Shown in pieces: positions 1,197 to 62,189 of a stretch of DNA of 64,000 nt. Within the stretch, counting starts at the first letter, position 1, and each line of letters opens with the position of its first letter. The notes under the pieces are model-generated. The model had not been told where the DNA came from. It worked only from the letters and a program-made list of their open reading frames with translations, and searched no databases. The stretch is from NCBI GenBank assembly GCA_902728285.1, contig CACVBU010000402.1, positions 62,001 through 126,000 of the forward strand, in the 5' to 3' direction. This DNA comes from Clytia hemisphaerica (lineage: Eukaryota > Cnidaria > Hydrozoa > Leptothecata > Clytiidae). The translations under genes and the position numbers were made by a program.

Positions 1197-1445
1197 GTGC
1201 ATGTTTTTTTATAAGCATTGCACTTATAAGCATATCTAGGCTCAGATGGCGAAAACTTAAGCATATAGTATTTACATTTTGGCTGTTTTTGGCTGGGATT
1301 TTGCGGATTTTCGGAATTCCCCTAAATTTTTGCTTATGATATTTAAGCATCTCCAAGCATTTTTCAGCCTTGTCAATCTCTCGATCTAGGCATCTCCTAA
1401 TCAGTTTTTGATTTTTGTATGCTTATATAAAAAAGAAAACATGTA
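1197..1445. mobile_element. TIR element, family A, TAAGCAT word
   Basis: The left end TGCATGTTTTTTTATAAGCA mirrors the right end ATGCTTATATAAAAAA...ACATGTA. Between them the word TAAGCAT (or its complement ATGCTTA) recurs at about 1212, 1226, 1259, 1331, 1346 and 1420. It also carries a GGCTCAGA motif related to the AGGCTGAGA motif of the elements at 10133 and 25818. No coding capacity. The target duplication is not clear. Confidence 0.55.
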
Positions 1446-1627
1446 GGTGCCAAATGGTCCTTTTCCCTTTCTTCTGTTATAAGTATGAATTTCGGGTTTA
1501 GGATAGATGCTTCATCATGATTCTCAAAGACACTATCAGACTCGAGTGTCTGACTGAACACTTCAGGGGCTTCAAAATTGATGGCTGTTTTGAGATATAA
1601 TTCATGACTTCTTGTACATACAATCAT

Positions 1628-2340
1628 GGTCGAAATATATTGAGAACTACGGTTATTTTAACGTTTTTCAAGATTTAACCCTTTGCGTGCCGTTACCTTA
1701 TTTTTGTACCCCAATCCATTTGCCGAGGGGTAATTTTTTTTAGTAACCTGATTTGCCGATGTCGTATATATACGACATGCAAATTTTAACTCGTGTTGCC
1801 GCATGTCGTATATATACGACAAGGATATTTTATTCCTATTTGCCAATGTTTGACATTTGTATTTGACATTTGTTTTATATATATTTTATGATAGACTAAA
1901 ATAAACCTGAAATTAATCTTTTGAGCACTTAATATATACTTTCACTACTACTATGGATTTTTTTATGTCGGATATATACGACATTGGCAAATAAGAAAAC
2001 CATTTTCCTAAAAGCTGATTTCTCGGCAATAGCGCTGACTCTTTTTTAAAGGCCTCGGCAATTAGGTAAAAAAATTGATGTCGGATATATCCGACATTGG
2101 CAAGTAGAGTGAAAATTTGCATGTCGTATATATACGACATCGGCACGGAAAGGGTTAAAGTTCCGGCGAGAACGATTTTGGGCTATCTCTTTAATTTAAT
2201 CGAATGTTTCAATTTGGGATGGGTTGGCAGACTTCCAGGTTATATTCTGAGCCTTGGACTATTTTTAAACTGTTGGATCCTCAGATCGCGTTAAAACTCT
2301 ACCCTTCGAACCTACTTTAGAGCACTTACAAATCAATTGT
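1628..2340. repeat. Dispersed repeat, interrupted copy (partner at 13204-13440)
   Basis: The flanks of the piggyBac-like MITE (1628-1674 and 2159-2340) line up with one continuous stretch at 13204-13440. Shared words include GGTCGAAATATATTGAGAA, AGTTC.G.CGAGAA, TTTTGGGCTA and AGACTTCCAGG.TATATT. The 13204 copy has a single TTAA where this copy has the MITE, so it acts as an empty site. No coding signal is visible in the repeat. Confidence 0.7.
1675..2158. mobile_element. piggyBac-like MITE with palindrome ladder
   Basis: The element is bounded by TTAA (1675-1678 and 2155-2158), the piggyBac target duplication. Inverted ends are CCCTTTGCGTGCCG and, complemented from the right, CCCTTTCCGTGCCG. 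Inside are five near-identical 18-20 bp palindromes of the form TGTCGTATATATACGACA or TGTCGGATATATCCGACA at about 1766, 1805, 1965, 2080 and 2121, mostly beside TTGCC or TTGGCAA. There is no transposase. The empty paralogous site at 13204-13440 confirms the borders. Confidence 0.75.
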
Positions 2341-4734: not shown

Positions 4735-4985
4735 TCAAAGAAAAGTTTTGGGATTTCCAGGGACCTATTTTTTTTCCGGGGCGTTGAAAATTATTCTGAA
4801 ATTCCAAGCGCTAAAAGATTGACTTCAGTTTGCCCATCCTCACTTTGTGGTACAAAAGTTTTTCCAGGACAATACAATCCTTTGCGAATGATATTTGCGA
4901 ATGTTGTCGTTTTTCTAGGAAATAATAGCACAATCTCATAAACCGTTTATCTTGAAAAGGGCCGTCAACCCACCCCATGGATGGA
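4735..4985. repeat. Degenerate TTTCCAGGGG-word repeat
   Basis: GATTTCCAGGGACC, TTTTTCCGGGGCGTTGAAA, ATTCTGAAATTCCAAG and GTTTTTCCAGGA follow in the same order as the TTTCCAGGGG/CCAAGGG words of the repeats at 6425-6660 and 55650-55905. This copy is the most diverged of the three. The open frames across it are by-products of the repeat. 4986-6007 next to it shows nothing I can identify. Confidence 0.4.
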
Positions 4986-6007: not shown

Positions 6008-6289
6008 TTAGGCTTTTCCAGAGAAAAAACGTATACTCCCTGTTGAGGAGGTCCATTTCCGTTCCAAGGGGGTAAGGTTTTATATGTGGCGGAATTCCAG
6101 GGAAATAAAAAATCTGTCAAAAATAACTGGAATCCCATGGGGGTAGCTTTTAAATCCTACTAAAATTCAGAATTCCAGAGGGGATTACACCTGAAATTGC
6201 CTGGAATTCCAGGGGGTCACAGCATTTCCAGCCACAGAGGGATGGACCTCCTCAACAGGGGGTATATGGTTTTTTTCTGGAAAAGCCAA
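6008..6289. mobile_element. TIR element, family B, GGAATTCCAGGGG word
   Basis: Long inverted ends: GGCTTTTCCAGAGAAAAAAC then TGTTGAGGAGGTCCAT on the left, and their near-perfect complement (6241-6287) on the right, about 48 bp per arm. The interior holds GGAATTCCAGGG at about 6092 and 6203, with variants GGAATCCCATGGGGG (6131) and GAATTCCAGAGGGG (6173). The element at 61868-62189 has the same GGCTTTTCCAGAAA ends but the word GGATATCCAGGGG. Confidence 0.65.
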
Positions 6290-9900: not shown

Positions 9901-9914
9901 CTAACTTTATTTCA

Positions 9915-10132: not shown

Positions 10133-11587
10133 TACACATTTTTTATAAGGAACACGTTTATAAGGAACTTGAGGCTGAAAATGGTCTGAAAAATAAGGAA
10201 TTGTTAAGGAACTGCTCAAGCTGAGAATAAAAAATCAAGTTAAGGAACAGCAAGAGTTCAATTTGAACTTGCACACATTTACAACAACCGTCGTCTGAAA
10301 GATGCACAAAGATGGCGGAAAAAATTCAAGAAAATAATCAAAAATCACCATCAATAAACGACTTTTGCAGCCCGTCAAAGTGCATCATAAATGAAGAAAG
10401 CGCACTAAAAGATACCCTACAATGCAGGAAGTGCCACCGTTTAGTCCATTATCTTTGTACAGAACTGCTACTTTACCAGATCCAGATATGCTTGTCATAC
10501 AAATCAAGAAGTTTCCAGTGTCAAAACTGTACCAAAATCGCACCACAGGTAATGGAAAGGTATAATTCAAATGAAACATCAAAAATTGAAGGATTCAAAA
10601 ACGAAATCAAAGCTTGTGAGAATATAATGAAAAGGCAGGACGAAGAAATAAACCATTTGAAAGCACAAGACGTCAATGTTATGGTCAACGAAATGAAAGA
10701 AACTATCGACACCAGAATAACCACGCTTGAAAAGAAGATTGAAAGCATCATCGAAAAGAAAGAAGAGAAAAGACCACCAATAAGCTACGCTAAAATAACA
10801 TCCAAACACATCGAGAAAAACATTGGAGATGCGATTCGAAAAGAAAAACAGGAGGAGCAGCTGATTCGATCTACAGCACGCAACCTAATTTTTCATGGGA
10901 TTGATGAATCGACAGATGAAACTGAAGAAGAAACAAAAATCGAGGACGAAGAATTTATCCATGACAAAATTATTGGTCAGCGGCTCAATCTGAGGAATAT
11001 AAAGATTACCGAGACGCAGCGGATCGGGAAATTTACGAAAGAAAGAGAAGATAAAGCGAGATACCGACCAATTAAAGTCACATTTACGAACGAAGAGGAC
11101 AAGAACACAGTGTTGCAAGCAATAACAAAAGAAAAAGGCTTTCCTTACCGAGTGACAGAGGATTTGACCAAAAATGAAAGACAGATAATTAAAGAATGGT
11201 GTAAGGAAGCCGAAAAATGAATGCTAAAATCAAGGAAGACAACACAAAATGGAAAGTCCGGGGGAGCCCGCGAAAAAAACTCTATTTCAAAAAGGTCATT
11301 GTAAAAAGTACGAACGGTTTATAGAGGCCCATGTGTCTTCACGGTGGCCTGCAAACCTGTAAAGCTTTATTATTATATATTATTAAATAAAAAGACGGAA
11401 AAAATTGCTGAAACGCCTTTCAATATGTCAAAAAGACAAAAATGCTGATAAAGAAGCTACACACTTAGCAAATCCAAATTTAACAGTTAAGTAACTAAGG
11501 GCGAGTCTTTGAAGCTGAAACTCTCTGCCAAAATAAGGAACTCCAGGCTCGGAGCCAAGTTAAGGTTCCTTATAATAAAAACGTGTA
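10133..11587. mobile_element. TIR element, family A, AAGGAAC word, carrying a LINE ORF1-type gene
   Basis: The left end TACACATTTTTTATAAGGAA mirrors the right end (complement TACACGTTTTTATTATAAGG). Near the left end ATAAGGAAC or TTAAGGAAC occurs at about 10146, 10160, 10204 and 10243; near the right end AATAAGGAAC at 11531 and a complementary copy at 11562. AGGCTGAAAATG and AAGCTGAGAATA lie between the words. TA at both outer borders could be a target duplication or part of the ends. The middle is LINE-like sequence (10312-11385). Confidence 0.6.
10312..11220 (+). CDS. LINE ORF1-type nucleic-acid-binding protein (PHD-like finger, coiled coil, RRM-like core)
   Basis: A 302-codon open frame. 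Residues about 19-75 hold paired cysteines and a histidine in a PHD-like pattern (FCSPSKCII, LQCRKCHRLVHYLC, FQCQNC). Residues 90-155 are a charged coiled coil. Residues 180-290 match the ORF1 core of CR1/L2/jockey-type LINEs: ARNLIFHGIDE, an acidic patch, KITETQRIGK, RPIKVTF, VTEDLTKNERQI. Such proteins coat LINE RNA. The stop at 11220 appears secondary: one extra A in the run before it would extend the frame through TKWKVRGSP to about 11320, the usual ORF1 ending. A LINE-like 3' tail (AGAGGCCCATG, GGCCTGCAAAC, then ATTATT) follows directly with no ORF2, as in ORF1-only half-LINEs. The ATG in AAGATGGCGG is the first start in frame. Confidence 0.7.
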   Translation: MAEKIQENNQKSPSINDFCSPSKCIINEESALKDTLQCRKCHRLVHYLCTELLLYQIQICLSYKSRSFQCQNCTKIAPQVMERYNSNETSKIEGFKNEIKACENIMKRQDEEINHLKAQDVNVMVNEMKETIDTRITTLEKKIESIIEKKEEKRPPISYAKITSKHIEKNIGDAIRKEKQEEQLIRSTARNLIFHGIDESTDETEEETKIEDEEFIHDKIIGQRLNLRNIKITETQRIGKFTKEREDKARYRPIKVTFTNEEDKNTVLQAITKEKGFPYRVTEDLTKNERQIIKEWCKEAEK

Positions 11588-11636: not shown

Positions 11637-11900
11637 GAGGCCACCCCAGCGGCACCCCTAATCACGCTATCACGCAAAAATAATTTCTCCATCACGCATC
11701 ACGAAAATCGCTAAAATTTGTCATCACGCAAAAAATAGTCAAAAATAGCCCAAATTACGCATCACGCCTCAAATTTTTGCCCTATCACGCATCACGCCAA
11801 AATCTTGATCACGCAATCACGCCAAAAAAAATCTCTAATCATTCCATCACGCAAGAAAAAAGTCCCAATCACGCCATCACGCAAACCGCTGGGGGGCCTC
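11637..11900. mobile_element. TIR element packed with ATCACGC words
   Basis: Ends GAGGCCACCCCAGCGG and CCGCTGGGGGGCCTC are inverted repeats. GTACAG precedes (11631) and follows (11901) the element, a 6-7 bp target duplication. Between the ends the 7-mer ATCACGC occurs 12 times in one orientation plus close variants (ATCACGA, TTACGC), separated by 0 to about 25 AT-rich bases. No coding capacity. Confidence 0.7.
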
Positions 11901-16477: not shown

Positions 16478-16939
16478 CTTTAATGGGATAAATTTTCGCG
16501 GGGATTAATTTTGGCAGATTTCGCGGATTTGGGTGTCATCCGCGAAAATAAGTCCCATTGGAAATTTGAAAAAGGCCCATCCGCGAAAATTAGTTTCCGC
16601 GAAAAATTTGAATTTTTGTTGCAATCCGCGAAATTAATATTTTTATCGTTTTTTATTTTTTTTCAACTTTTCATAGTTGTAATACATATCTCCTCGCCCT
16701 GTTCAAAAACACCCTCTTATTACTTGAAAAAAAAATTCTTAATTTTCCTGGAAAAATTTTATTTCAATGTTTTGACCCTTTTCAAAAATTTTAATTTGTA
16801 CCCCAATCCGCGAAATTAAATCCCCGCGAAAAATCAGGAAATCTCTCATCCGCGAAAATTAATCCCCGCGAAATCTTAAAATTACGCGGATGAGCTAAAC
16901 CGCGAAATTTAATCCCCGCGAAAATTTATCCCATTAAAG
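16478..16939. mobile_element. TA-flanked MITE, family D, CGCGAAA word, inserted in the DIRS
   Basis: Inverted ends CTTTAATGGGATAAATTTTC and CGCGGGGATTAA on the left are matched on the right for over 30 bp. TA lies at 16476-16477 and 16940-16941. Inside, CCGCGAAA/TTTCGCGG words recur more than ten times. Removing the element with one TA restores the DIRS frame from DWNQS to YAFSPFFLIGGR. A second copy is at 53649-54016. No transposase. Confidence 0.8.
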
Positions 16940-23130: not shown

Positions 23131-23447
23131 TTAATTCTTACTTTTATTTATTTTAATTTATTTCTTGTTATTTCATAAAATACCACGTATCCTTCAAGGT
23201 GGTCGCTAACACTTTTTAGCCAAAAAAAGGATATTTTGGTTTTTGGCCCTAAATGATCCCAAACCTTTTCCAAACATGCTCTGAAAATTTCAGGTCAAAA
23301 GAATTTGTGGTTCATTAGTTATGAGCCTTTTTGTAACAGATGGTCTTGTGATTCTTGGAAAAACGCCCCTACCAACGGAAGGGTAAAAAATTAGGTCCCG
23401 TTGCTAAGGTGTTAGAACCAAAAGGGGGAAAGTATACATGGCAAGTG

Positions 23448-24952
23448 AGTCTGTTAAATGACGCGCCTTACGCGCCCAAGCGCCTTCCATTTATTGACGC
23501 GCCCACGCACCCACGCGCCTTACGCGACCTACGCGCCTGAATTTTGACGCGCCCTCTTACGTGCCTTATTATCAACGCGCCCTAAATTTTTGACGTGCCT
23601 TACAGTATTACTACCTTAAATTTTTGTAAATTTTGACGTGATTTTTATTGCCCCCCGGCACGTGAAAAGCGAATGTTCTGCAAAAAATTATTCAGAAAAA
23701 AAGACGACAACAACGGCGGTTCATTTCATTTTTTCTGATTTCTAATCCAATTTTTTTTAGCATTCTCTATGAGACAGAAGTGATTTTATTTCTTTATCAT
23801 TTATCATATTTATCAAAAACACTTCGTAAAAATTTATTTATAGACTCAATGACACATGGTTTTATCAATATTTCATTTTCTGGTTGAATTCTCAGTGTGT
23901 TATTTTCTTGCGAGTTCATACTTAATTGATTATGCCTTATTATTTTCCAAATTTTAGCTAAATTGTGCTTTTAAGCGTTATGCTTATAAATAAATAAGAG
24001 TGTAACAGTAGGGAGATTACTCAGGCTAAAAGTAGCATTCCTTATTAAATTATCATAAATTCAGGGCTATGGGGGCATTCATAGCGATAGTTAATGCTGC
24101 TTACCATGCATCTTTAAATCAATAGTTTTAAAAGTATGCTTACGCATCAGCCCTATCTGACCAATAATAATGTAATGCCTATGTATACATATTCTACCAT
24201 TCTTCAAAAAGAAGTAAACTATTTTTGACAAAAGCTTCGGCATCACATAATTAAAGAAAAATTGTTAGGAATTATAGGAGATTCAGATTGAAGGAAACTA
24301 ATTGAAAGTTTTGTTACGAAAATGATGCTTGTAAAAACAAGTATGCTATGTTTGATTTATGAAAAAAGTTATTACCGAAAGCCAAATTCCCTTAAATCAA
24401 AAGTTATTGATTGGTTTCTTATAAAGACGATGCTTAAAAGAAAAATAGATATGCTCAGGTTAAGCACAATTCTTTCCTGGCTTTGCTAAAGAACTAATTA
24501 CCGAAAGCCTAATTCCCTCAAATCAAAAGTTATTGATTGGTTTCTTGTAAAAAAGACGTTTATAAGAAAAATAAATATGCTGACATTAAACACAATTCCT
24601 TACTTGCTTTGAAAAGAACTAACAGCGAGGTTAAATATCGGTTTTGCTCTAGAACACGTTTCCGTTCAGTTTCTCGTTCTAGAGCAAATCCGATATTTTT
24701 GCCCGGGGTATGTCTGCCTAGCTTTCGGGTTAGCATGTAGAAAAGTGCCGTAGCGCGAACGAAGGCTTCAAAAATTCGTCCGTCGTCCTGAGTTATCTAC
24801 TGATACTTAACCTCAGGGCGCGTCGGTAATAAGGCAAGTAAGTAAGGCGCGTCAAAAATTTAGGGCACATCGATAATAAGGCGCGTAAGAAGGTGCGTCG
24901 AAATTCAGGCGCGTAGGGCGCGTGGGCGCGTGGGCGCGTCATTTAACAGACT
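23448..24952. mobile_element. 1.5-kb TIR element with ACGCGCC arrays and 11-bp target duplication
   Basis: Ends AGTCTGTTAAATGACGCGCC and its exact complement lie at 23448-23467 and 24933-24952. CATGGCAAGTG is present on both sides (23437-23447, 24953-24963), an 11-bp duplication as in Mutator-like elements. Next to each end ACGCGCC or its complement GGCGCGT is repeated: about nine on the left up to 23600, about seven on the right from 24815. The interior holds no long frame; it contains TAAGC-type words, a tandem duplication and a small foldback. Confidence 0.75.
24371..24622. repeat. 126-bp tandem duplication
   Basis: ATTACCGAAAGCC.AATTCCCT and AAAAGTTATTGATTGGTTTC occur at 24371 and again 126 bp later, diverged by roughly a tenth. 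It lies inside the 23448-24952 element. Immediately after, 24629-24693 is a foldback: TTTGCTCTAGAAC and its complement GTTCTAGAGCAAA around a 17-base loop. Confidence 0.6.
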
Positions 24953-25199
24953 CATGGCAAGTGACCCCTCAAAATAACGCTAATTCCCACTCTTTTAGAT
25001 AACCGTATCAAATATCCACTTTGCTTTACGGCAAACTGTCAGTGTTCAAAGATATATTTTGAACCACAATATGAAGTGATGGGATGTGAGTGGTGACTTT
25101 TTTTATGCTTTTGGGGTATTACTGTAAGCTTAAAACACATGTTTAGACATGTTAAATGTTTGAGGTAGACATAATAATGTTTCTCCTTTCCTTTTAAGT

Positions 25200-37262: not shown

Positions 37263-37604
37263 GTTTTAGACAAAAACTAGGGTATATTTAAAAATCACAA
37301 ATAAGCTTAATTTTGGAGAATAACTCGCTTTATGGAGAGGTAGAATATATCTAGAGAATATCTTAACGTGGCAGCACATACATTGTACAGTACTCGAGAG
37401 TGCTAGAATAAATAAGATAATAATTTTACAGAAGCACTCACAACGGGCAGAGAAGGAAGGACAACAACATTTTTCCAAACTGTTCAAAACCATCTTCCAT
37501 AGTTCCTATGAACAGAGAAAATTACATGAAGTCATTTAGTTTACTTTACTTTTGATCAGAACATCATGTCTTATTGGGTCTTTTGGACGATCTATTTTGT
37601 AGTT

Positions 37605-37720
37605 AACCCTTTCCGTGCCGCTGTCGGCAAGTGCCGACAAGAGCATTTTCGATTTCTTTGCCGGTGTCGTCATTTGCCAACAAAAGAGATCTCGACCTAT
37701 ATTTGCCAGAGGTTTTTTTT
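37605..37720. mobile_element. Left end of a piggyBac-like MITE relative
   Basis: GTTAACCCTTTCCGTGCCG repeats the end of the 1675-2158 element. It is followed by TGTCGGCAAGTGCCGACA, a palindrome with the same TGTCG...CGACA arms but a different centre, and by GTCGTCATTTGCCAAC. The right end is not found. A lone relative, CATGTCGGCATATGCCGAT, sits at 53379. Confidence 0.5.
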
Positions 37721-39047: not shown

Positions 39048-39327
39048 GAATTTGCTCTAAAGATAGGCATACTGGAGAAGTGGGACGTGGGACGGTGGGA
39101 CGCTCAGGTGGGACGCTCGAGTGGGACGCTCAGGTGGGACGGTAGTGGGACGCTAAGGTGGGACGGTAGTGGGACGGTAGTGGGACGCTAAAGTGGGACG
39201 GTAGTGGGACGCTAAGGTGGGACGGTAGTGGGACGGTAGTGGGACGCTAAGGTGGGACGGTAGTGGGACGCTCAGGTGGGACTGTAGTGGGACGCTAAGG
39301 TGGGACGGTAGTGGGACGCTCTCTCGT
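39048..39327 (+). repeat. 24-bp satellite (GTGGGACGGTA/GTGGGACGCTAAG), forward copy
   Basis: Alternating 11- and 13-bp half units make a 24-bp period. The array starts with CTAAAGATAGGCATACTGGA then GAAGTGGGACGTGGGAC. The same start, on the other strand, begins the array at 44455-44850, so the two are inverted copies about 5 kb apart. The minus-strand frame (repeating SVPLPSHL) is a product of the period being a multiple of three. Confidence 0.75.
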
Positions 39328-39589
39328 AAGGCTTTTGTATTTTTGCTTCTCTGATAATTATGTACGAGTAAAAAAGAACTCAATATGAGTAAATGAATAC
39401 TTTCAGTATTAGTTGTTATTCTGATCGGAATACTCTCAAATGATTACGCCAGTATCGACAAAATAACAATGAAAATCCTGCCTATTGTTTGTATGCGCGA
39501 ATGAAAATGTTTTACGCAATTACATTACGTCATTTTTTATTACTTTTTATGGTAATATAAAAACATTTGCTCTCACCGAAGAAACATGA

Positions 39590-39670
39590 CTAAGTAGCTC
39601 AGTCGGTAGAGCATCAGATTCAAGGTCAGGTGGTCCAGGGTTCAATTCCCCCACACGTATTTTTTTTTCT
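39590..39670 (+). pseudogene. tRNA-like sequence (Lys-type D arm)
   Basis: TAGCTCAGTCGGTAGAGCAT is the canonical D-arm/A box and GGGTTCAATTCCCCC a B box; a T run follows at 39660 as a Pol III stop. The 7-bp acceptor halves (GACTAAG and CACACGT) do not pair and the anticodon stem is poor, so it is more likely a pseudogene or SINE head than a working tRNA. Confidence 0.45.
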
Positions 39671-40312
39671 TTTCTAAACTAATCTATCCACAGGGATCAA
39701 AAATATTTCAGACCTAATCAAAAATATTGATTTTTCAAGCACGGAGGACGAGAAATTTATCTTTTTAAATAGCAGATCTTGTTGTTGTCCTTTAATCTTT
39801 TGATACTTTTGATACAATTTTCATCAAAAATCTGTCTTTGAATCATACAAAGTTCCAATACACTTTCCTCGAGATATACATGGGGGGATATTGGCAAAAA
39901 GGGGTACGGATACTCCGGGGGGGGGGGATACTAGGTTTGCGAGGTGACAGGTATGTCCGAGGCAAAAATCGAAAATCGCCCCTTTGAGAGACAAAATTTT
40001 GATGATTTTGGGACCCTTTGAGAGATTTTTTCCCTAAATTTAGTTTAAAAGTCTGTACTAGACGGACACGGTCCTCCGCCTACTTTGAAGTGTTAAAAAT
40101 TGGTTGGCTAGTCAGACAGGCTAATAACGTTTTCTCTGAAACAAATATTCTTTTGACACTTTTTGCCGGACAAAATCGGTTCGGAAAAACTGGAGCAACC
40201 TTCGATTGCCTTATCGGACTTTTTAGCTGTTGGACTAGATGATGTCGGATGCATGACTTTTGAAGACTCCTCCCCCCAGTTTGTGAAATCATCATTCTGA
40301 GCAGTTTTCCAA
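39671..40312. other. No recognised gene; G run
   Basis: A homopolymer of about ten G lies at 39918. Open frames on both strands at 40018-40335 show no family signature. Confidence 0.35.
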
Positions 40313-40516
40313 GAGAAAAAAATCTGTATTTCCAATTAAATAAGACAGGCTATGAATTTTCGCATAGGAAATTGATTTTCTGTGGTTTCTCAAGGGAATA
40401 ATAATCTTCTTTTTCAAAAAGAAAAATTCAACTAATGATTGCTCAAGGAATTTCAGTTATTTTGTATTTTTTGCAAGGGAAATACCTTTTCTTTCAAAAG
40501 AAAATCAATAAAGTGC
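40313..40516. repeat. Left part of a CAAGGAAAA word array
   Basis: CCAAGAGAAAAAAATC, CTCAAGGGAATAAT, CTCAAGGAATTTC, GCAAGGGAAATACC and CAAAAGAAAATC are degenerate forms of the word in 42312-42890. The element at 40517-42311 separates the two parts and both borders carry AGTGC, so they were once continuous. Confidence 0.45.
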
Positions 40517-41375
40517 CAGGGTGGCCAGCGATTTTAGTCATTGAAAATCAAGTATATTCAAGTACTTTTTGGAGCATTTTTGATAATTTTCAAGTATATC
40601 TTTGCTATTTTCAAGTATATGAAGGTGCAAAATTCAAGTACATTCAAGTATATTTTGAACTTTACGTATGGTGCTTCGTTAGAATAGGGATATCTGGATC
40701 CCCAATTTGCCAGAAATTTTATGGGCTTCCCTTTCTTAAAAATATTATGACAAAATTGTGTGCACAAAATACTGATGCCAGAATTATTTTGACATTTTCT
40801 CAAATTAAACAACAGATCAAAATGTGCTCTAGAAACTAGTGGATTTATGACACCATGGCGTACTACAGCGGTTGTCTAATTTCTAGAATTTTATTACTAA
40901 CAGCTTACGCAGCAAGGTTGTCAAATCAGAAGATTTGGTTGCGAGCGAAGTGGGTAGAATTTCTTTTATTGCAATTCTAAGTAGTAGGAAGAAATTTTCC
41001 GATATTTCCAGAATGTTTTCTAGAGACTATCAGAAATATTTTCTTCAAATATCAGACTTCAAGACTTTTAAGACATTTCCAGTTCGAGCAGACGAAGAAA
41101 CTGTGTAATTAAGAGTTTAGTCAATTCAGTCAAATCAAAACTTTGCTGAAAAATTGACATTTTCCCAATTTTCAACTTCTTATTTCTAGAATCATTTCCC
41201 TATGGCTCACTGCTCCCAGAAGGTTATTTTCTAGCAAGAGTTTTTAACATAGAAAATTGGCGAGCACTTTTCATGTAGCACTTTTCATGTCACTACCTTT
41301 CAAACTTTCAAAAATACCACCATCAATTTTAGATAGGTCAAGTGTCCTGATATTAGTGGGTTTCATGATTACTTG

Positions 41376-42090
41376 GAGGACCCACCATGGTTGGGTCCGA
41401 CAAAGAAAATTTTGAAAAATAGGGATTCAAAGATTGGCTAAAACCATCAATTTCAAGGGACTATAGAAAGAAATTTCCTGACTTTTCCCTGACTTTTGAA
41501 GAATTTTACAAAAATTCCCTGGCTTTTCCATGTTTTCCCTGACTTTTTCTAAAAATAGCCCTTTTTCCAGGTTTTCCAGGTTTTCCCTGACCGCTTTAGC
41601 ATTAGCCTGCACAATTCATTTACCATGGGCTCCATTTTTCAGCAGTAGCTTGATTTGCAAATATCAGATATCCATTTGGCAGAGAAAGAGTGGAAATGTG
41701 CACATTGGATATATTCTTTCATTACATGCCCCAAAGGCTAGATTTTTGAAATTCTCAATGAGGGTTATCTTGCAGTAAATAACTTGAGCTGAAGAATATC
41801 TAAGATTCTGCTTTTACTTTTTTTCATATTTTGTATGCTCCAAAGACTAGATTTTTGAAATTCTCAATGAGGGTTATCTTGCAGTAAATAACTTGAGCTG
41901 AAGAATATCTAAGATTCTGCTTTTACTTTTTTTCATTTTTTGTATGCCCATTAAGGTTCATCTTTTTTAAAAAAGCCATATCAAATAGGTTAAGTCAATA
42001 AGACCAACCAAGAATGTCTAACCTTACAAATAGGGTACAATACATTGTTATCAGGAGGACCCACCATGGTTGGGTCCGAATAGAAAATTT
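41376..42090. repeat. Direct 45-bp repeat and 107-bp tandem duplication
   Basis: GGAGGACCCACCATGGTTGG followed by GTCCGA and GAAAATTTTG occurs at 41376 and 42055; the core is itself a near-palindrome. Between them AAGACTAGATTTTTGAAATT and TCTCAATGAGGGTTATCTTG appear twice in tandem (41731-41837 and 41838-41943), almost identical and therefore recent. Confidence 0.65.
41468..41590. repeat. TTTTCCCTGACTTTT word cluster
   Basis: TTCCTGACTTTTCCCTGACT, ATTCCCTGGCTTTTCC, GTTTTCCCTGACTTTTT and CCAGGTTTTCCAGGTTTTCC occur within 120 bp inside the larger element. Similar TTCCCTGACTTTTCC tracts are widespread in arthropod and other invertebrate genomes. Confidence 0.5.
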
Positions 42091-42311
42091 TGGAAAATTT
42101 ATACTTCAAAACAGCCTGTAAGAGCCCTGGAAATAGAAGATTTGATTGAAAAAAGAAATTCAAGTATTTTCAAGTATTCCAATTTATCATTTTCAAGTAT
42201 ATACTGGAAAAATGGGCATTTTTTCAAAAACTCCAGTATAATCAAGTACCAATATATTTTTCCAGTATATTCAAGTATTTTCAAGTATTTCCAGTATCGC
42301 TGGCCACCCTG

Positions 42312-42890
42312 AGTGCTGTGATTTTCCTTGGAGAATACGTGAAAATTGATTTTCCTGGGAAAGAACAGAACAAAGGATTTTCCTTGGAAAATACGCAACA
42401 ACTAATTTTCCTCAGAAAATACGGACCAGTGATTTTCCTTGGAAAATACGCAACAACTAATTTTCCTTGGAAAATACGCAACAACTAATTTTCCTTGGAA
42501 AATACGCAACAACTATTTTCCTCAGAAAATAAGGACCAGTGATTTTCCTTGGAAAATACGCAACAACTAATTTTCCTTGGAAAATACGCAACAACTAATT
42601 TTCCTTGGAAAATACGCAACAACTAATTTTCCTTGGAAAATACGCAACAACTATTTTCCTCAGAAAATAAGGACCAGTGATTTTCCTTGGAAAATACGGT
42701 CTAGTGATCTTCCTTGGAAAATACGCAATAACTAAATTTCTTTGGAAAATACGCAACAACTAATTTTCCTTGGAAAATACGCAATAACTATTTTCCTCAG
42801 AAAATACGGAATAACTAAATTTCCTTGGAAAATACGCGATAACTAATTTTCCTTGGAAAATAAGGGACAACTAGTTTTCCTTGAATTAAT
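42312..42890. repeat. 28-bp tandem array built on TTTTCCTTGGAAAA
   Basis: About 20 units, typical sequence TTTTCCTTGGAAAATACGCA then ACAACTAA, with variant units TTTTCCTCAGAAAATA.GGAC and CAGTGA. Each unit is a hairpin of 6-bp arms with a TT loop. The minus-strand frames (VFSKEN/RIFQGK repeats) are incidental. Unit variants alternate in blocks, which points to local unequal exchange. Confidence 0.75.
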
Positions 42891-44454
42891 TATTTTAATC
42901 TTCTTATCTTCTAATCTTTCTTATCCTTTCGGGCTGACCTTGCGTTTCTCTTTATAAAAATAATTTTACATAAAAATAATAGCATGCTTTTGTTTCGAAA
43001 CTGCTGATGCAAGATTTAATTACAAAAAAATATAACATGATAGTTTTCGAGTGTTATATATATTTAGTGCAATCGGCTCTTGCATGTTGGAAATAATCTA
43101 AAATCATTTCTTTAAGAAGTCAATACCTTGACAGGGTAAAATTATACAAGTCATGGCAAAATAAAGGTCTCATGATAATCATTGTTCACTTCTCTTGCAC
43201 ATCAGCTGCGTGGCCGAGTGGATAAGTCGATGAAACGGCAACTTAAGGGTAATGATTATAGAGAGTTTGAATCCTATACGGGTGCGACGAAAATTGTGTT
43301 ATTTTGTCTGTTTTGTCAACATTGATCAAACTTTTTCTGGTTTTATGAGCTCTTATTGATATTTTTGAAAATTTCCGTAAAAATTTTAAGAAACAAAAAT
43401 TGGGGGGGGGGGCAGTCAGGCAAATTTACCGACGCCGCGACGGGTATCTGCAGCGGTTTAGGCTATCTGATATTCCGATGGCGTATTGGCGGCCGCCCAC
43501 GCTAAAGCATACTGTCAATTGGTAACCCCCCCCGGAGTGTCACCTCAGCTCAATGCAGTTTGATTCAAGTACAGTATTTCAAAATGGATAAGGTTGATTA
43601 GCAGGTGGAGAGTCAAGAGTCAAGAGTTATGACTTTCCCTTGTATTGAAAATCTAATGTTCCAAAACTTTCAACTAAAAAAATGCTAAAAAATCGGCTTT
43701 CGTCTTTTTTTATTATATCTTATAAACACTTTTTTCAGAACCACGATGAAAAGAAAAGCAAAACTGACTGAATATGCTGCCAAAAAAGTGATTGACAGGT
43801 CTAGAAAATGATTGACAGGCCCGGGTTAGATATTTCCGTGAGCAATCTCGTTATATTTATCAAAAAGTAATATACTTGTGGAAAGCCCAATTATTCTACT
43901 TTTTCGAATGCTGTGTCATGGAATTTTTTTAACAATTAAATAGAACGGGGTTTCCTCTGATGTAAACAAACCTCGAGTCCTATCCTGAAAATTGACATTG
44001 AGCGTAGAAAAAAAGACAAATGAAAGTATTTTCCTTTCTAATTCATATTTCCAATAATTAAAGACTGAAAACACCGAGAGTGAAATGTAGCTAAATGATT
44101 AGAACGCCTTGCGACTTAGAATTTTTTTTCAAAACTGAAAATTTGACCCTGGCTCGAACTACTAAAGTCTCTTGTCAATGATTCTGAGTCCGGCACGCTA
44201 GCAATGTACTATCGAACCGACATGATACTACGCAATTCAAAAATACTTATAAAAAACACTACTGCATATACGGGTGAACTGACCTTGGACCTCATGGGCT
44301 AGGTCTTTGTAGCTTCGATCAAATTGATTATGTTATTATTTTATAATCCATTCACTATGAAAAAAGTCAAAAACATTTCGATCGATCTGTGTATTGTTTA
44401 TAAGTACTTGACCTGTCCCTCTTCACTGTATTATAAAAAGAAAAAGACAAAATA
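42891..44454. other. Gene-free; two tRNA-like sequences
   Basis: 43206-43290 reads as a class II tRNA-like sequence: GCGTGGCCGAGTGGATAAG (A box), a loop CTTAAGG (Leu TAA-like) and AGTTTGAATCCTAT (B box), with weak acceptor pairing. 44095-44170 has TGTAGCTAAATGATTAGAAC and GGCTCGAACTAC as poorer boxes. Neither folds well enough to call a tRNA gene. A G run lies at 43404. Confidence 0.4.
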
Positions 44455-44850
44455 CATATAAAAGAGCGTCCCACTACCGTCCCACTTGAGCGTCCCACTA
44501 CCGTCCCACCTTAGCGTCCCACTACCGTCCCACCTTAGCGTCCCACTACCGTCCCACCTTAGCGTCCCACTACCGTCCCACCTTAGCGTCCCCCTACCGT
44601 CCCACCTTAGCGTCCCACTACCGTCCCACCTTAGCGTCCCACTACCGTCCCACTTTAGCGTCCCACTACCGTCCCACCTTAGCGTCCCACTACCGTCCCA
44701 CCTTAGCGTCCCACTACCGTCCCACCTTAGCGTCCCACTACCGTCCCACTTGAGCGTCCCACCTGAGCGTCCCACTCGAGCGTCCCACCTGAGCGTCCCA
44801 CCGTCCCACGTCCCACTTCTCCAGTATGCCCTAAAGATATGCTATCAAAA
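44455..44850 (-). repeat. 24-bp satellite, inverted copy
   Basis: About 12 units of the complement of GTGGGACGGTAGTGGGACG with CTAAG, ending in CTCCAGTATGCCCTAAAGAT, the mirror of the start of 39048-39327. Frames of 114 and 138 codons on the two strands arise because 24 is divisible by three. Confidence 0.75.
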
Positions 44851-49209: not shown

Positions 49210-50997
49210 GCTAAGGGAATTTTCAGATACCGTGTCCCGTTGTAACCACCGTCAACATGGTTAAAAACTTTTCACTTCACAGGTAGGTACAACATTGTGT
49301 TTGTATTTTATTGGACGTCTGGTTCTAAAAAGTCAAAAAGTTTGTTCAGTTTTAATTTGAGCAAAGTAGGCTCCTGCGTTCAACATCAACAAGGTACAAT
49401 GTGCAGTGGTGGTATTAGTAGAGAGAATGTTCGAGTCTGTTCATAATATGAGGCTGAAAATCTTTGGCGTACATACATATCGAAGTACCGTTCTGGCACA
49501 GTGACATAAACAGCATTTTTAAAGTTTCCTAAAGCTTCAATATTGGCGTAAAGAATTATTCACAAAATAGCATCAAATACTCCATAATCCATCGTTTTTC
49601 GGCTTTTGTTCCGCTTCTGTTTACATTTTTCTGCTCGCTGATCCCCATGCTCAACCATTTTTTGCTGTAACACTGTGCTTCAAATGTCCACGAGAATGAA
49701 TCAGTTCATGTTAGTCATAGTATATTCTCATTGGCATGTCTCACTCACTAAATCTTCTGTAAGAAACTCAATGTTGGTATACCAGTTTTTGGCACGTTTT
49801 GGCGCAAGGCTTAAAAAATTTCAATTCAATTTCCTTCAAAATGAAGTCACTATATAGGTAAAAACAATATGAATTAACAGTCAATTTCCCTTTTTTCTAA
49901 GCCTTTATAATATCAGTAGGGTTTCGGTAGAGCAGCGCATAACTGGGTGTGTGTAGCACACTGTCATTGAAGATGTCCATTCTGACAATCGTGGGTTTGA
50001 TCCAATATCAGTAGTTTGATAGTTATTCATTTATCCTCTCTTATAAAGATGCTTACCCCCTGGATATCGTATTATTTTACTTGAAAAGACAAATTACCAC
50101 TGGATATCCGCTCCCTTGTAGATATTTAACCCCCTAATTTTCCACTTTTGAAAAAAAATCGTTAACCCCCTGGATACAAAGCCACTTTATCTGATTTGGT
50201 TTAAGTATTCAAGCGTCATATGCCTTAAATTTTGTAACCTTTTTGCGTGAAATCATTTTTTAATATATTTTGTGTTAGTGAATATTCTTACCCAAGTACC
50301 CAGATACCCCAAAAACAAGACTTATTGATTGAATGAATCATAATTCACTTACTTCAAGTTTGTCTCTTTGTAATTGGAATATTCTTTCTTCTCCCTTGGC
50401 TTTTGGAGTGAATTTTTTTTACGTTGAATACAAATAAAATCAAAGTCAACTTTCCAGCTGGGCCCTTATTTTTATTTTTCCCAACGGAGGCAAATTTTGG
50501 TTAAATTTCTAGTAGGCGGGGTCCCACCGGGTCTGTGAAACTGGGGTGTAGTTATCCTGTAATAAGTTTGATATATAACCAACACACCATATAATCTGTA
50601 CCAAAGCCACTTCATTTGATTTGGTTGAAGTCAATTTTTGTAACCTTTTTGTGTCCTTCGTAACTGGAATATTCTATCTTATCTATTGCTGTTTGAGATA
50701 TTAAAGTCCTTTATGTATTGTCAAACAACTTTTATATTTAGCTGATATTTATATCCTTTAGTTATCCTATAACTTAGTTTGATATATAACCAACCTTCCA
50801 GAGCTGTGTATTTTCTGAATCAACAAGCTACTTCTTTGAATTTACTTCTTCAACTAAATTACAAGAGTCATATAATATTTTTAACCTTTTTGTGAAAATT
50901 CTTTTAACCTTTTTGAGTGGAATCTTATAACCGTTTTGTAAGAAGTGTTAGTATATTTTGTATTCGTCAATATATTGGGGGCACATATCACTTATAA
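49210..50997. other. No gene; inverted GGATATCCAGGGGG word cluster
   Basis: At 50040-50175, CCCCCTGGATATCG, CACTGGATATCCGC, ACCCCCTAATTTTCC and AACCCCCTGGATA appear with AAGATGCTTA and CCCTTGTAGATATTTAACC, the reverse complement of 61918-62040 in matching order. 49915-50005 has weak tRNA-like boxes. The rest is unassigned. Confidence 0.5.
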
Positions 50998-53319
50998 TAC
51001 CGGGTGTCTCTGAAAAAACTTCCCCCTGTTTGATTCAAAATTGCGAAAAAGTGAAAAAATATGTTAGCTTGATTTTTTCTAAATCGTTTAGAGGAGGGTT
51101 TAACTTAAATTTTGGTATATCAAACTTTAGAATTGCTTCATTAGACCAAAAGTTATGACAAAAAGAGTAAAAAATCTTTTTTCTAAAAGAGCGAAAAAAG
51201 ACGAAAAAACAGGGTATCAAATCTTTTGTTAGAAAAAAAGACACTCAAACTTTCTCTTCTCCACTCAAATAGACTCGCTAAGCTTTGGAAACTTTTGGAA
51301 AAATTTTGATAAAAGTTTGTTGCTTGTTTAAACTTCATGCTCATTAATGAATCCAAAAGGAGCTCTAAATTGGCAATAAAAATCATTAACAAGTGATACT
51401 TTTATGGACCTACCTGGTTGTGCATTTAACACATTTATAATTGATATCTACGTGACGTGACCATTAAACAATCATTCAGAACACAAATATTGACGATCTA
51501 TTAAAATTAGTCATTTTTTTCTTATAAAAAAAACATTTAGAAACTAAAATTTCATGCTCTTGAAATATTCTTTCATATTCAAGACTTCGTGAGCAAAAAA
51601 ACATCCATCTCGTCAAAAAATTGACCAATTTGGCTAAGAACATTGATTCATGCTTATTAATAGTGATTCTTATGGATAAAGATGCGTTTTTTGAGCTGAA
51701 AAATTATTTTTTTACAAAAATCTGCTTGAGCCATCTTTTACCTAATTTCATGCAAAAAATCAGAAAAAAACAATGATCCAATATTTCACAAAGTCCAAAA
51801 AACTCTTTTTTTGGCCGTTTTTTAGCTGAAATTTACCCCAAAATTTTTTTCTCAAAAATCGAGCTCCGTCACATTCAAGGGTTTATAGTTATGCATCTTT
51901 GTGCAAAAAAATCATAAAGAATAAAACCGCCAATCTCGAGAAAAGCTAATACCTAAGTAATTGATAATGTGCTTATAAAGAAATATCGAATTTGGCCAGT
52001 TTTTCCATAAAAACATGCCAAGCAAACAAAATTTCCTGTCTAAACACACATATTCTTCAAAAGTAAGCCCTCATGAGCAAAAAAAACATCTACCTCATAA
52101 AAAAAATTGAGTAATTTGACTAAGAACATTGATGTATGCTTATTAATAGTGATTCTTATAGATAAACATGCCTTTTTTGAGCCAACAAAATTTTTTTTGC
52201 AAAAATCTGCTTGAGCCATCTTTTACCTATGATAGGTCCCTACTTTCATACAAAAAATCAGAAAAAATTAATGATCCAATATTTCACAAAGTCCAAAAAA
52301 CCCGTTTTTTAGCCGTTTTTTGGCCCAAATTTGCCCAAAAACATTGTTTTTCGAAAATCAGGCTCCGTCACATTCGAGGGTTTATAGTTATGCATCTTTG
52401 TGCAAAAAATCATAAACAAAGAAAAAACCTATCTCGAGAAAAGCTAATACCTAAGTAATTGATAATGTGCTTATAAAGAAATATCGAATTTGGCCAGTTT
52501 TTCCATAAAAACATGCCAAGCAAACAAAATTTCCTGTCTAAACACACATATTCTTCAAAAGTAAGCCCTCATGAGCAAAAAAAACATCTACCTCATAAAA
52601 AAAATTGAGTACTTTGACTAAGAACATTAATGTATGCTTATTAATAGTGATTCTTATAGATAAACATGCGTTTTTTGAGCCAACAAAATTTTTTTGCGAA
52701 AATCTGCTTGAGCCATCTTTTACCTATGATGGTGCCCTACTTTCATGCAAAAAATCAGAAAAAATTAATGATCCAATTTTTCACAAAGTCCAAAATACCC
52801 ATTTTTTAGCCGTTTTTTGGCCCAAATTTGCCCAAAAATTTTTTTTTTCGAAAATCGGGCTCCGTCACATTCGAGGGTTTATAGCTACACATCTTTGTGC
52901 AAAAAATCAGAAAAAACTAATGAGCCAATCTCGAGAAAACTTGGTAACGAACGAACAAACGAACGAACGAACAGAGGTTAATTTATAGGACCTCCACCGG
53001 GGTAGGTCCAAAAACGAATAATAAAACAAAAAAGATGCACAGAAGATCAAAAGTAAAACTTTACTGTCAATAAAGTACAGTGTTTTCTTGTCTAATTTGA
53101 TACCCTGTTTTTTCGTCTTTTTGCGCTCTTTTTGAAAACAATTTTTTTACTCTTTTTGTCATAACTTTTGATCTAATGAAACAATTTTAAAGTTTGATAT
53201 ACCAAAATTTAAGTTAAACCCTCCTCTAAACGATTTAGAAAAAATCAAGCTAATATATTTTTTCACTTTTTCGCAATATTGAATCGAACAGGGGAAAGTT
53301 TTTTCAGAGACACCCGGTA
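50998..53319. mobile_element. Element with about 235-bp terminal inverted repeats
   Basis: TACCGGGTGTCTCTGAAAAA at 50998 and the complement of TTTTTCAGAGACACCCGGTA at 53319. The arms continue for about 235 bp with high identity (CAAAAGTTATGACAAAAAGA and TTTAGAGGAGGGTTTAACTT on the left, complements on the right). TA at both outer edges is consistent with a Tc1/mariner-type insertion. The middle is filled by the dispersed repeat 51404-53010; no transposase is left. Confidence 0.7.
51404..53010 (+). mobile_element. Dispersed element with about 490-bp internal tandem units
   Basis: Starts ATGGACCTACCTGG and ends GGGGTAGGTCCA, short inverted ends. CTGCTTGAGCCATCTTTTAC recurs at 51722, 52207 and 52705, giving three units of 485-498 bp; each also has GGCTCCGTCACATTC.AGGG and CTCGAGAAAAGCTAAT. 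It ends with an AACG-rich stretch. Copies: 63085 onward and 36290-36530. The 96- and 127-codon frames inside are parallel products of the repeats, not verified genes. Confidence 0.65.
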
Positions 53320-53648
53320 TTTTTGATATTTTTCAGAAAATAAAGCTAAATGTGATGATAAACTCTGTGGTCGCTCATGTCGGCATATGCCGATATCTGG
53401 CAAATAGGTCAAACCTTAATCTTTTTCTTATTGTGATCACATCCGTAAAAAATACGAACGGCAGTTAAAGGTATTAATGAATTCTGATGGATTGTCTCCA
53501 TAAAGATAATAATAAAATTGATCGTCCACCTCTAAGTAAAACGCAATGTCGAATATTTTTAGATATCCGATTGCAAAATATCTCTTCTGTAGCAGCGAGC
53601 ATTAAAGAAAATAGTTTTTTGATCAAATAATTATTTAAATGTCACATA
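53320..53648. other. No gene; lone palindrome
   Basis: CATGTCGGCATATGCCGAT at 53379 followed by TGGCAAATAGG is the same kind of palindrome plus TTGCC unit as in the piggyBac-like MITE at 1675, without its ends. Confidence 0.4.
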
Positions 53649-54016
53649 CTTTAATGGGATAAACTTTCGCGGGGATTAAATTTCTCGGATTTCGCGGATT
53701 CGGGTGTCATCCGCGAATATCCTCGAAATTAAGTCCCATCGGAAATTTGGAAGGGCCTCATCCGCGAAATACTTCTAAACAATACTTAAAATATGTCAAA
53801 TAAATACTATTTGAATGGTTACTTGCATCAAAGAAGCTCAAATAATGTGTATTTCAACAACCAACATGCATGATTTGAAAGTAGAAGTCACAAAATCGTG
53901 AAAATATTGCCATCCAATAGTGCCACACGCGAAATTAAGTCCCCGCGAAATTTTTGAATCTTGCAGATAGGCTCAACCGTGAAATTTAATCCCCGCGAAA
54001 GTTTATCTCACTAAAG
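53649..54016. mobile_element. TA-flanked MITE, family D, second copy
   Basis: Same ends as 16478-16939: CTTTAATGGGATAAACTTTC at the left, mirrored with three changes at the right. TA lies at 53647 and 54017. CGCGAAA words are fewer and more decayed. The 200-bp middle differs from the first copy. Confidence 0.7.
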
Positions 54017-56225: not shown

Positions 56226-56341
56226 CTGAAAAAATAGACATAATACGCATTTGCTAATTATCAAGATAGAAAGTATCGCACACTATTTTTTATTAGAACA
56301 ATTTTATAAGAACAATTAGGCTAAAAAAAGCCAAAAAAAAT

Positions 56342-56445
56342 CTTAAGAACAACCCTCAGCCTGGAATGGCTAAATTTTGCGCAAATTAAAGGTCAACACG
56401 GTAAAATAGGGTATCAGCTCAGAAATAACCCAAATCTCCCCTTAT
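56342..56445. repeat. 100-bp dispersed repeat, copy 1 (partner 60369-60472)
   Basis: CTTAAGAACAAC.CTCAGCCT, GGAATGGCTAAA, TTTGCGCAAATTAAAGGTCA and ACGGTAAAATAGGGTATCA occur at both places, both inside the same intron and in the same orientation. The TAAGAAC words just upstream (56297, 56312) tie it to family A. Confidence 0.65.
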
Positions 56446-59992: not shown

Positions 59993-60368
59993 TCTTCAAT
60001 TTATAATTTAACTATTCAATTAATCTAAGAAGAAATCACAAAATATGAAGAAGATCTTAGATTTCAGCTGTTTTTTTTTCACTTTTTCGCTTTCAAATGT
60101 AGTAGCACAGTTATTTGTATAAATCGAAGTGAATTTTTCCAGAGAGTCTGGCGCCTATGGAGTTCCCAACGAAAATTCGTTTCATTCGAGGGATTATCCA
60201 GGCGCTTAAAAATTTTCAAAGTGAAAACAACTGATCATAATTTAGTTATGAAAATCCGCAGAGCAGAGAGTGGAAAGGCAAAAAATATAATGACAAATAG
60301 TTGCGATCATGATTTGGGGCGACGGAGGAAATTTTGATTTTGACCCCCTACTATGCCTTAAAATGCCC
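59993..60368. other. Upstream region of the coiled-coil ORF
   Basis: AT-rich; no promoter element can be assigned with confidence. GAGTCTGGCGCCTATGGAG at 60147 is the only GC-richer spot. Confidence 0.35.
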
Positions 60369-61065
60369 TTAAGAACAACGCTCAGCCTGGAATGGCTAAA
60401 ATTTGCGCAAATTAAAGGTCAAAACGGTAAAATAGGGTATCAAGTCAGAAGTAACCCACATTTCTATGTCAATTTTTTTCTTAAACAGCATAAACACACA
60501 CGTACATACAGAGACTCAGACACAAACAAGGACGAATAAAAGAACTCAGTGCTTCAAAAACGCAAGTAGTTGATTTCATTTAAATCATTCAAATGCCCGA
60601 ACTGTTTTTGAAATATATGAACTTATCCTCCCCTCTCTGTCTTTCTATTGATATTGTTTCAGATTTCATTCTTGCTCAAACAAAAATAAATTTAGATACC
60701 ATGACAACTTCAGTTGGGTACTATCTTGCGGTTCATATTTCATAACGCCGGCCTCCACTTGCGCGCGCTGCGATCGCACCTTTTGGCTTCAATCCTTTTT
60801 GCTTGATAAAAACGTTATCTCATAAAAATGTAGCGCGCGCTGGAAGAAGAAGTCGAACACATTTCAACTTATAGGTTTTAAGCCTAAAAAAATTCTTAAC
60901 ACGTTCTTATTTTCACCATTTTGTGAGTATTTTTCTCCATTTTTTCTAAGAAATCGGGTGTTATAAAGTCTGCAAAGCTTTAAAACGTTCTTAACTACTT
61001 GTTCTTAATATTTTCGCCATCGAAGCTATTTGTTCTTATGTAGTTTGTTCTTATATACCAGGTGC
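60369..61065. repeat. 100-bp repeat copy 2 and GTTCTTA word cluster
   Basis: 60369-60472 repeats 56342-56445. Further right, TTCTTAACACGTTCTTATTT, ACGTTCTTAACTAC, TTGTTCTTAATATT, TTTGTTCTTATGTAG and TTGTTCTTATATACC (60891-61060) are complementary forms of the TAAGAAC word of family A, with AAGCCTAAAAAA beside them. GCGCGCGCTG at 60757 and its mirror AGCGCGCGCT at 60832 bracket a 65-bp stretch. Probably an eroded family A element. Confidence 0.45.
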
Positions 61066-61867
61066 ACCAAAAAAAAGTATACAACTTTGTCGAGATATTG
61101 CGAGCTTCAGGATTTACATTTTTTGTTCATTCTTTTTTTTATTATATAAAGGATGCTCTAACTTGAATTTTGAGCTATCATACATTAAGTTTGAAAAAGT
61201 AGTTCGAAAGTTATTTCCAAAAAATTGACTTTTTTTCCATGTCGAAATCTCAAAAAATCATTAAAAACAGCGAGCAAACTTTTCTCTTGACACTTACATT
61301 GTTTACACATAAAAATACAAAAAAATGCAACTGTGTTCATCAAAACTCGTTGCGGAATTTAAGAATATGTAAAACAAGCTATTCCCACGTGGGATAATAT
61401 TTTTAGAAATCTCCAAGAGAGGTTTTGATGTTATGTGTGTGCTATGTGAGAAAATTTTTGAAACTGCCAAAGTTTGTTCCAGTGAGTAAAGGTTTTGTTT
61501 TTATAAATAAGAGTGATATCGTTTGATTACTCATCAATTTTAATTCACAAGCTTTTCCACATTGGATTTACACAGGTGTGGAGCAAGATTGGTCAGGCAA
61601 GACACTGTCCTGGTATGAAATATGTGTCTGATATGAAACGGAAACACCTATGTAAAGATAACACCTTTAACTCTGCTTTTAAAGTAGAAGATTTTTGACC
61701 TTCACATCAGTCAAGCCCCTGAAAATCTTTCATTAGTGCATCCTTATAGGCCATTTAACAGTCGCAAAGCGTAATGGGTAATCAGGACCAGTGCGCGCTA
61801 ATGACGGCTTACTATTGGTCCAAAGTTTTGAAAATATTTTGAAGATTTTTGCGTCTAGCCAACCGGC
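61066..61867. other. No gene; possible mariner-type end
   Basis: TATACCAGGTGCACCAAAAA at 61057 looks like one end of a Tc1/mariner-type element (compare TACAGGGTGTCC at 38049) without a partner. No exon or other feature is seen. Confidence 0.3.
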
Positions 61868-62189
61868 AATGGGCTTTTCCAGAAATAGTATATAAATAGG
61901 ATATCGGATATCCAGGGGGTTAACAATTTTTGTTCAAAAGTGGATATCCAGGGGGTTAAATATCTACAAGGGAGTGGATATCCAGGGGGTAAAGTGACTT
62001 TTCAAGTAAAAATACGATATCCAGGGGTAAGCATCTTTATAAGAGAGGATATCCAGGGAGTTGAGCATATCTTTAAGAGCGGATATCCAGGGGTCTTTAC
62101 TATTAAAGTAGGATATCCAGGGGGTTCAATATTTTGAAAAATCATTATCCTCAACAGTGGGGTAAAATTTTTTTCTGGAAAAGCCCAAT
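61868..62189. mobile_element. TIR element, family B, GGATATCCAGGGGG word
   Basis: ATGGGCTTTTCCAGAAA at 61869 and the complement of TTCTGGAAAAGCCCAAT at 62173-62189. Seven copies of GGATATCCAGGGG(G) or CGATATCCAGGGG, all in one orientation, at about 61905, 61942, 61978, 62010, 62047, 62080 and 62111. Compare the element at 6008 with GGAATTCCAGGGG and the inverted cluster at 50040. Located in the unc-13 intron. Confidence 0.7.

Follow-up and report, generated by a model that had tools for sequence, protein, structure and literature searches.

Several families of inverted-repeat elements in a 64,000-nucleotide stretch of the genome of the hydrozoan Clytia hemisphaerica (contig CACVBU010000402.1, positions 62,001 to 126,000, forward strand; hereafter the window) carry arrays of a short DNA word of their own, and we consider these arrays to be, with a probability of about 75%, subterminal recognition sites of cut-and-paste DNA transposons, mostly non-autonomous miniatures. 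This reading draws on the enrichment of the words, their conservation across copies, their strand bias, the joint change of terminal and inner words in two groups of elements (scaffold A and, with fewer changes to go by, scaffold C), and a relative of family D that has the same words and encodes a piggyBac transposase. From these we infer that the words are bound, that the arrays have a role and that the same mechanism operates beyond family D. The window is AT-rich and harbours reverse-transcriptase frames, tandem repeats and many inverted-repeat elements. It is part of one contig of the 417-Mb assembly (951 contigs) that served for genome searches, and we also analysed a genome sample of 200 kb, made of twenty 10-kb stretches from three other contigs.

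A preliminary description of the window, made from the letters alone, had reported at least ten unrelated element families, each with an array of its own word. The words lie where it placed them. For 18 stretches with bounds set by eye, we compared word counts with those in dinucleotide shuffles, a stretch passing when no more than 1 of 300 shuffles (0 of 60 for a 5.8-kb stretch) reached its count. As the best 7-mer was searched anew in every shuffle, the choice of words is paid for. The expected word enrichment was borne out, with 15 of the 18 stretches passing at 7 bases. Two of the words first listed are not clearly enriched. In the AACGTC stretch the best 7-mer is another word, whose count was reached in 76/300 shuffles, and at 8 bases that of AACGTCAT was reached in 115/300; AACGTC at 57930-58735 was rejected as a family, its counts being reached by shuffles. 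The ACGCCA stretch failed at 7 bases (110/300), and ACGCCA itself gave 7/300 at 6 bases. A comparison element with 227-bp arms at 50996, for which no array had been claimed, failed as well (10/60 at 7 bases), and an AT-rich 8-mer is enriched in it (0/60).

We also scanned for array regions, defined as at least five copies of one 7-mer inside 300 bp, without any prior words. This blind scan revealed 18 regions in the window, compared with 0.1 in block shuffles, and 40 in the 200-kb sample, compared with 0.8. Some of these regions correspond to satellites, minisatellite or coding repeats; among the 18 in the window, one is a 35-bp minisatellite (46026-46266), with seven copies at 93% and an open frame across it, and another, at 47640, is a longer duplication. 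Further words were found on sample elements with ends, for example CACCCGAC, TAAGAAT, TTTTAGCG, CGGGGAAAA and AATTCCG. No ends were found for the stretches of other sample words, GGCTTAC and ATTCACG among them, and terminal repeats were looked for and not found around the TTTTCCTTGGAAAA groups at 35577 and 42321.

The window and the sample together (264 kb) yielded 96 inverted-repeat candidates, 19 of which have at least five word copies between their arms. Among 5760 length-matched spans outside them, 7.3% hold an array, an odds ratio of 3.1 (p = 7e-5) that is rough, as the candidates include chance and word-driven pairs and the controls include array elements with missed ends. At a threshold of at least four copies, the proportions are 30/96 and 12.3%. 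Arrays are associated with inverted-repeat elements, yet most candidates have none, including several long-armed ones; to attribute an array to each element goes too far. That inverted repeats and repeated words are merely both common in AT-rich DNA, and were linked by eye, is hardly credible: two listed words do fail a fair test and most candidates are devoid of arrays, but the blind scans found arrays far in excess of shuffles and their odds are about threefold higher inside the candidates.

Eight scaffolds, A to H, are firm in the window, so that about eight take the place of the ten unrelated families. The initial listing needs correction in that the words AAGGAAC, AAGAAAC and TAAGCAT belong to one scaffold (A) and that the ends are common to GGATATCC and GGAATTCC (scaffold B). 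The word is located within the terminal repeat in A, C, F and G, after the tip in D, and it starts past the terminal repeat in E and H. The target duplications initially given were right for TTAA at 1675, TA at 16478 and 53649 and the 5-bp AGTGC at 40517; the one at 11637, given as 6-7 bp, is 6 bp (GTACAG), and that placed at 23448 with 11 bp is in fact the 9-bp ATGGCAAGT at 23447.

A joint change of word and terminal repeat is clear in scaffold A. Its pattern, consisting of TTTTTTATAAG, a tail, a second TATAAG and then GGCT, has 3542 matches in the genome and none when reversed. The tails of the first two words are identical in 77 of the 100 listed matches (permuted mean 45.5, maximum 58), and among distinct strings they agree in 27 of 47 (permuted mean 13.3, maximum 23). 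We then considered the inner TAAG sites of 11 elements (three each from the window and the sample, and five fetched), with a second tip-near site counted as inner. The element's own terminal tail is found at 54 of these 85 sites and another subfamily's tail at 6, compared with an own-tail mean of 12.6 and a maximum of 47 in 20000 label permutations. Thus, the terminal-repeat word of scaffold A clearly matches the inner words and changes with them between subfamilies. The tips vary too, those of A2 being CAC with TA on both sides, while A1 starts with CAT and is flanked by TG/TA. The TAAGGAAC element contains a 317-residue open frame (10267-11220) without a Pfam match.

Scaffold C behaves in the same manner. 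Its pattern (TACTTTA, a subfamily heptamer, AAANTTT and N-GCG) has 3588 genome matches and none when reversed. Among the 100 listed matches 18 are second readings of one place, and in 69 of the 82 places the variable letter is concordant between the two words (permuted 41.6, maximum 54). There are four or five heptamer subfamilies, with CGCG and AGCG as the only common words and GGCG in one copy. In this scaffold also word and terminal repeat change together, on fewer changes, so the co-variation that the preliminary description suggested testing is seen in both A and C. The exact 23-base C tip had no matches in viral contigs. A C-type pair at C13:40081-41998 was rejected as an autonomous C element, its long frame having a GIY-YIG domain: this 394-residue frame (442-1626, + strand of the locus) lies between two scaffold C ends, is presumably, as judged by eye, a Penelope-like reverse transcriptase, and is probably an insertion between those ends. 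In scaffold B, two words are found on common ends, with one full copy each in the window, and AAT, an ANT flank, is present on both sides of the copy at 61871 and not at that at 6011.

The words are also kept across copies. For the element of family D, 40 near-complete matches were scored of 468 candidates (window included), at 95-100% identity, and the 20 most similar of those 40 harbour five (16 copies) or four (4 copies) TGTCG-N8-CGACA words. For family E, 1361 candidates (window included) yielded the 40 matches that were scored; these have 93-100% identity and cover nearly the whole element, most of them ending at or near the same bases.

Family D provides the protein side of the argument. 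Its TTAA-containing tip has 129 genome matches and none when reversed. We collected 20 further ends with this tip, picked as unpaired at the usual distance, some of which proved to belong to the window's own subfamily. Additional word centres are found among them. One or more TGTCG...CGACA words whose outer arms are exact are present in 15 of the 20; eight ends have a word at offset 19 from TTAA (element bases 16-33), and a word at offset 62 is likewise seen in eight. Between two D ends 3.1 kb apart, one locus (L061) matches PF13843 (E = 2.6e-87), zf-Tnp_2 on a separate piece (E = 3.7e-07) and chain 9c0f of piggyBat (3.4e-54). One of its ends has six words at 43-44-bp steps, of which four are exact and two have a single mismatch; the opposite end has two words. 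As judged from its sequence, L061 is a relative with D ends that encodes a piggyBac transposase core and a zinc finger. Another locus (L062, contig C695) was rejected as an autonomous D element, its longest frame being 107 residues.

The internal repeat of piggyBac, a 19-bp palindrome at bp 17-33, is the binding site of a dimer of the cysteine-rich zinc finger (PMC7351741), and by analogy the D words appear to sit where that dimer binds. With piggyBac and piggyBat, family D has in common the TTAA duplication, CCCTTT tips, a palindrome-like repeat inside the tip and, in its relative, a transposase with a zinc finger. Unlike piggyBac, for which one 19-bp internal repeat per end is described, it has up to six words at 43-44-bp steps, and related ends differ in their word centres.

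The arrays are mostly oriented. In the 47 irregular arrays, the majority strand holds 356 of 424 words, compared with a random proportion of 0.63. After removal of six part-tandem, duplicated or coding regions, it holds 243 of 311 (0.78; random 0.64, maximum 0.71), and in the 20 regions whose ends were found 119 of 153 (random 0.64, maximum 0.75). All words are on one strand in 16 of 41 regions, and in a common layout all copies point in one direction, apart from one or two at one end that are inverted.

We propose that the transposase of each family, or a DNA-binding protein encoded with it, would read the short word by means of a domain. Words in or next to the terminal repeats could load several protein subunits per end and help pair the correct ends, and with most words on the same strand the two ends would be distinct from each other. 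Joint changes in the binding domain and in its sites would give the same scaffold a new word, and the family would answer to its own enzyme. Of the two interpretations offered initially, the first is that transposase and site co-evolve; at the DNA level, scaffolds A and C and the position of the D words support it, while the protein side comes from family D only. The other, a host factor that reads the words, or a host process that writes them, in many families together, is not supported and seems to us very unlikely. It would account for an architecture common to many families in one genome, and the authors of the Hermes work propose a cellular factor for inner ends (PMC10368747). However, no core common to the words of different families was seen in the window and sample scans, the word is often in the terminal repeat and in A and C co-varies with it, which a host reader would not demand, and family D is explained by a known transposase domain. 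As known transposase mechanisms suffice, no common host factor is needed. The preliminary description is, overall, partly confirmed in its observation and partly supported in its interpretation.

A second alternative is that the arrays are by-products of mutation devoid of any binding role, replication slippage and gene conversion having multiplied short stretches of the terminal repeats, as happens in foldback elements from which satellites arise. One such element, Tetris of Drosophila virilis, is reported to have supplied the building blocks of a satellite (PMC4079207), the arrays of family G, like the 28-bp one at 42321, are truly tandem, spacing is regular in 11 of 58 array regions, and 19 of the 32 sample regions examined have no clear flanking inverted arms. 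Nevertheless, spacing is irregular in the other 47 (a few being part-tandem), tip and inner words stay identical though the spacers between them differ, and in many copies the position of the D words next to the tip is fixed. We judge this alternative improbable overall; it gains, and the recognition-site reading loses, weight from the predominance of sample arrays without flanking arms and from the few word changes in C.

Several other observations weigh against recognition sites. Flanking inverted arms with a score of at least 14 were found in 13 of the 32 sample regions examined, and some of the arrays without clear arms may be something else; as for the candidates, only 19 of the 96 have an array. 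In scaffold A, AAA and GAA tails are mixed in 3 of the 100 listed matches, and one element (L066) has CAA at its right end and CAT in its words. The copies of a subfamily share descent, so that counts overstate the number of independent events: scaffold A comprises about five word classes, and scaffold C rests on few word changes, representing two or three independent events. No word with exact outer arms is found in 5 of the 20 D-type ends, and in-frame stops lie between the pieces of L061. The words of E and H adjoin the terminal repeat and are not inside it, and the facing arrays of F and G depart from the one-strand pattern. In addition, Hermes with mutated inner left-end sites is still ~70% active (PMC10368747). 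Finally, a transposase is linked to the words in D alone, no genome search for transposases having been completed for the other seven scaffolds. Among 20 long frames submitted to Pfam (5 from the window and 15 from fetched loci), seven have a reverse transcriptase (in one case narrowly below the curated cut-off), one is a MULE, and no transposase is linked to an array. As for the autonomous partners that the preliminary description suggested looking for, L061, a relative of D with in-frame stops, is the only linked locus to have come to light.

Table 1. Word-array elements and related features of the window (positions in the window).
Feature	Position	Strand	Characteristics
Scaffold A, subfamily TAAGCAT	1200..1443	+	Ends CATGTTTTTTTATAAGCAT; left end recurs elsewhere in the genome
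Family D, piggyBac-like miniature element	1675..2158	+	TTAA duplication; five TGTCG-N8-CGACA words
Scaffold B	6011..6287	+	Word GGAATTCCAGGGG; ends GGCTTTTCCAGA
Scaffold A, subfamily TAAGGAAC	10135..11585	+	TA duplication
Family E	11637..11900	+	Ends GAGGCCMCCCCAGCGG; 6-bp duplication GTACAG; ATCACGC x12, one strand
Scaffold C, copy 1	16478..16939	+	Ends CTTTAATGGGATAAATTTTCGCGG; TA duplication; word CCGCGAAA x12
Family F	23447..24953	+	Ends GAGTCTGTTAAATGACGCGCC; 9-bp duplication ATGGCAAGT; ACGCGCC, 7 forward left, 7 reverse right
Scaffold A, subfamily TAAGAAAC	25820..26097	+	Approximate bounds
Short dispersed group of word TTTTCCTTGGAAAA	35565..35735	-	Terminal repeat not identified
Candidate family J	35876..36272	+	CGGCCYTTATTACGCC-like ends by eye; approximate bounds; ACGCC words, enrichment weak
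Relative of family D, left end	37603..37680	+	Other word centre, TGTCGGCAAGTGCCGACA
Family G	39066..44830	+	Ends GGCATACTGGAGAAGTGGGACG; 9-bp duplication CTAAAGATA; facing 24-bp arrays of GTGGGACG; holds H
Family H, nested in G	40517..42311	+	Ends CAGGGTGGCCAGCGAT; 5-bp duplication AGTGC; TCAAGTA words, one strand
28-bp tandem array on TTTTCCTTGGAAAA	42318..42890	+	Terminal repeat not identified
GGATATCC array fragment	50032..50176	-	90% to 61909-62051
Inverted-repeat element, negative example	50996..53321	+	227-bp arms; no clear word array
Scaffold C, copy 2	53649..54016	+	TA duplication; CGCGAAA words
Scaffold A, TAAGAACA left-end fragment	56283..56420	+	
Scaffold A, TAAGAACA fragment	60366..61060	+	
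Scaffold B	61871..62186	+	Six GGATATCC (eight GATATCC); ends GGGCTTTTCCAGAAA; AAT both sides

The table lists the elements of the window. The arms of the inverted-repeat element at 50996-53321 are 95% complementary and enclose a 498-bp tandem repeat, with related units at 63077-64000 and at 36.3 kb. In the sample, two inverted repeats with very long arms (L039, 3949-4977, and L040, 7780-8824; scores 297 and 261) are without a word array, L040 also harbours two long one-strand GACCGAC/AAAGTGA arrays, part tandem, over ~3 kb (3363-6517), and a frame with a MULE transposase domain (L038, 4695-6026, - strand) is linked to no array family. Rfam and ARAGORN reported no RNA families or tRNA genes in the window, including the tRNA-like stretches at 39580-39660, 43205-43290, 9390-10040 and 54330-54400, which by eye look like SINE heads.

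Mutator-like elements generate duplications of 8-11 bp, typically 9, and both F and G have 9 bp. The classic hAT duplication is of 8 bp, and CACTA/EnSpm elements have CAC tips and duplications of 2-3 bp. Families E and H differ from hAT elements by their 6-bp and 5-bp duplications, respectively, and no hAT transposase is linked to them, no search having been aimed at one. Nevertheless, the arrays resemble what is known of two hAT elements: the Herves transposase binds a repeated CG/AATTCAT (PMC3143072), and the BED domain of Hermes binds a subterminal site, with more sites mapped in both ends (PMC10368747). As in the arrays described here, the words of those elements, according to the same papers, are short and irregularly spaced, and the two ends differ. 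Among CGG-binding proteins derived from hAT, related domains bind many 8-mers, and four transposase motifs match their own subterminal regions (PMC8097297); those are measured proteins of other animals, whereas our words are known from sequence alone. The CACTA elements (En/Spm; Tgmt* of soybean) have conserved tips and subterminal motifs that diverge within a species, with possible co-evolution of binding proteins, and more such diversification within species is foreseen (PMC2613891). In scaffold A, too, the tips are conserved and the subterminal motifs vary from one subfamily to another within a species; the scaffold differs in being a short animal element, in having CAC or CAT tips by subfamily and in carrying the word in the terminal repeat as well. 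The Pangu (PHIS) group has an ANT duplication and ISL2EU an AT duplication (PMC4482050), the latter not found in scaffold C, where TA flanks both window copies.

The arrays are a large, many-family instance of the known biology of subterminal repeats in hAT, CACTA and piggyBac elements. The apparent novelty lies in how many private words a single genome contains and in the replacement of words on fixed scaffolds; a literature search for word arrays across many families of a single genome, or in cnidarians, found no report, which is weak evidence. A bolder proposal, possible though doubtful in our view, is that dozens of families carry private words, that scaffolds radiated by replacing all their words together with the binding domain, and that parasitic miniatures were shed recurrently. 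If so, the sequences of the arrays would be a readable record of repeated changes in specificity. If the words are binding sites, the C. hemisphaerica genome would represent a natural library in which binding domains are paired with target words, the matches of two scaffolds alone numbering in the thousands, and many new DNA-binding domains with distinct targets could be expected. The joint change of transposase specificity and sites would become testable, and in such genomes clustered motifs of this kind could be mistaken for host regulatory elements.

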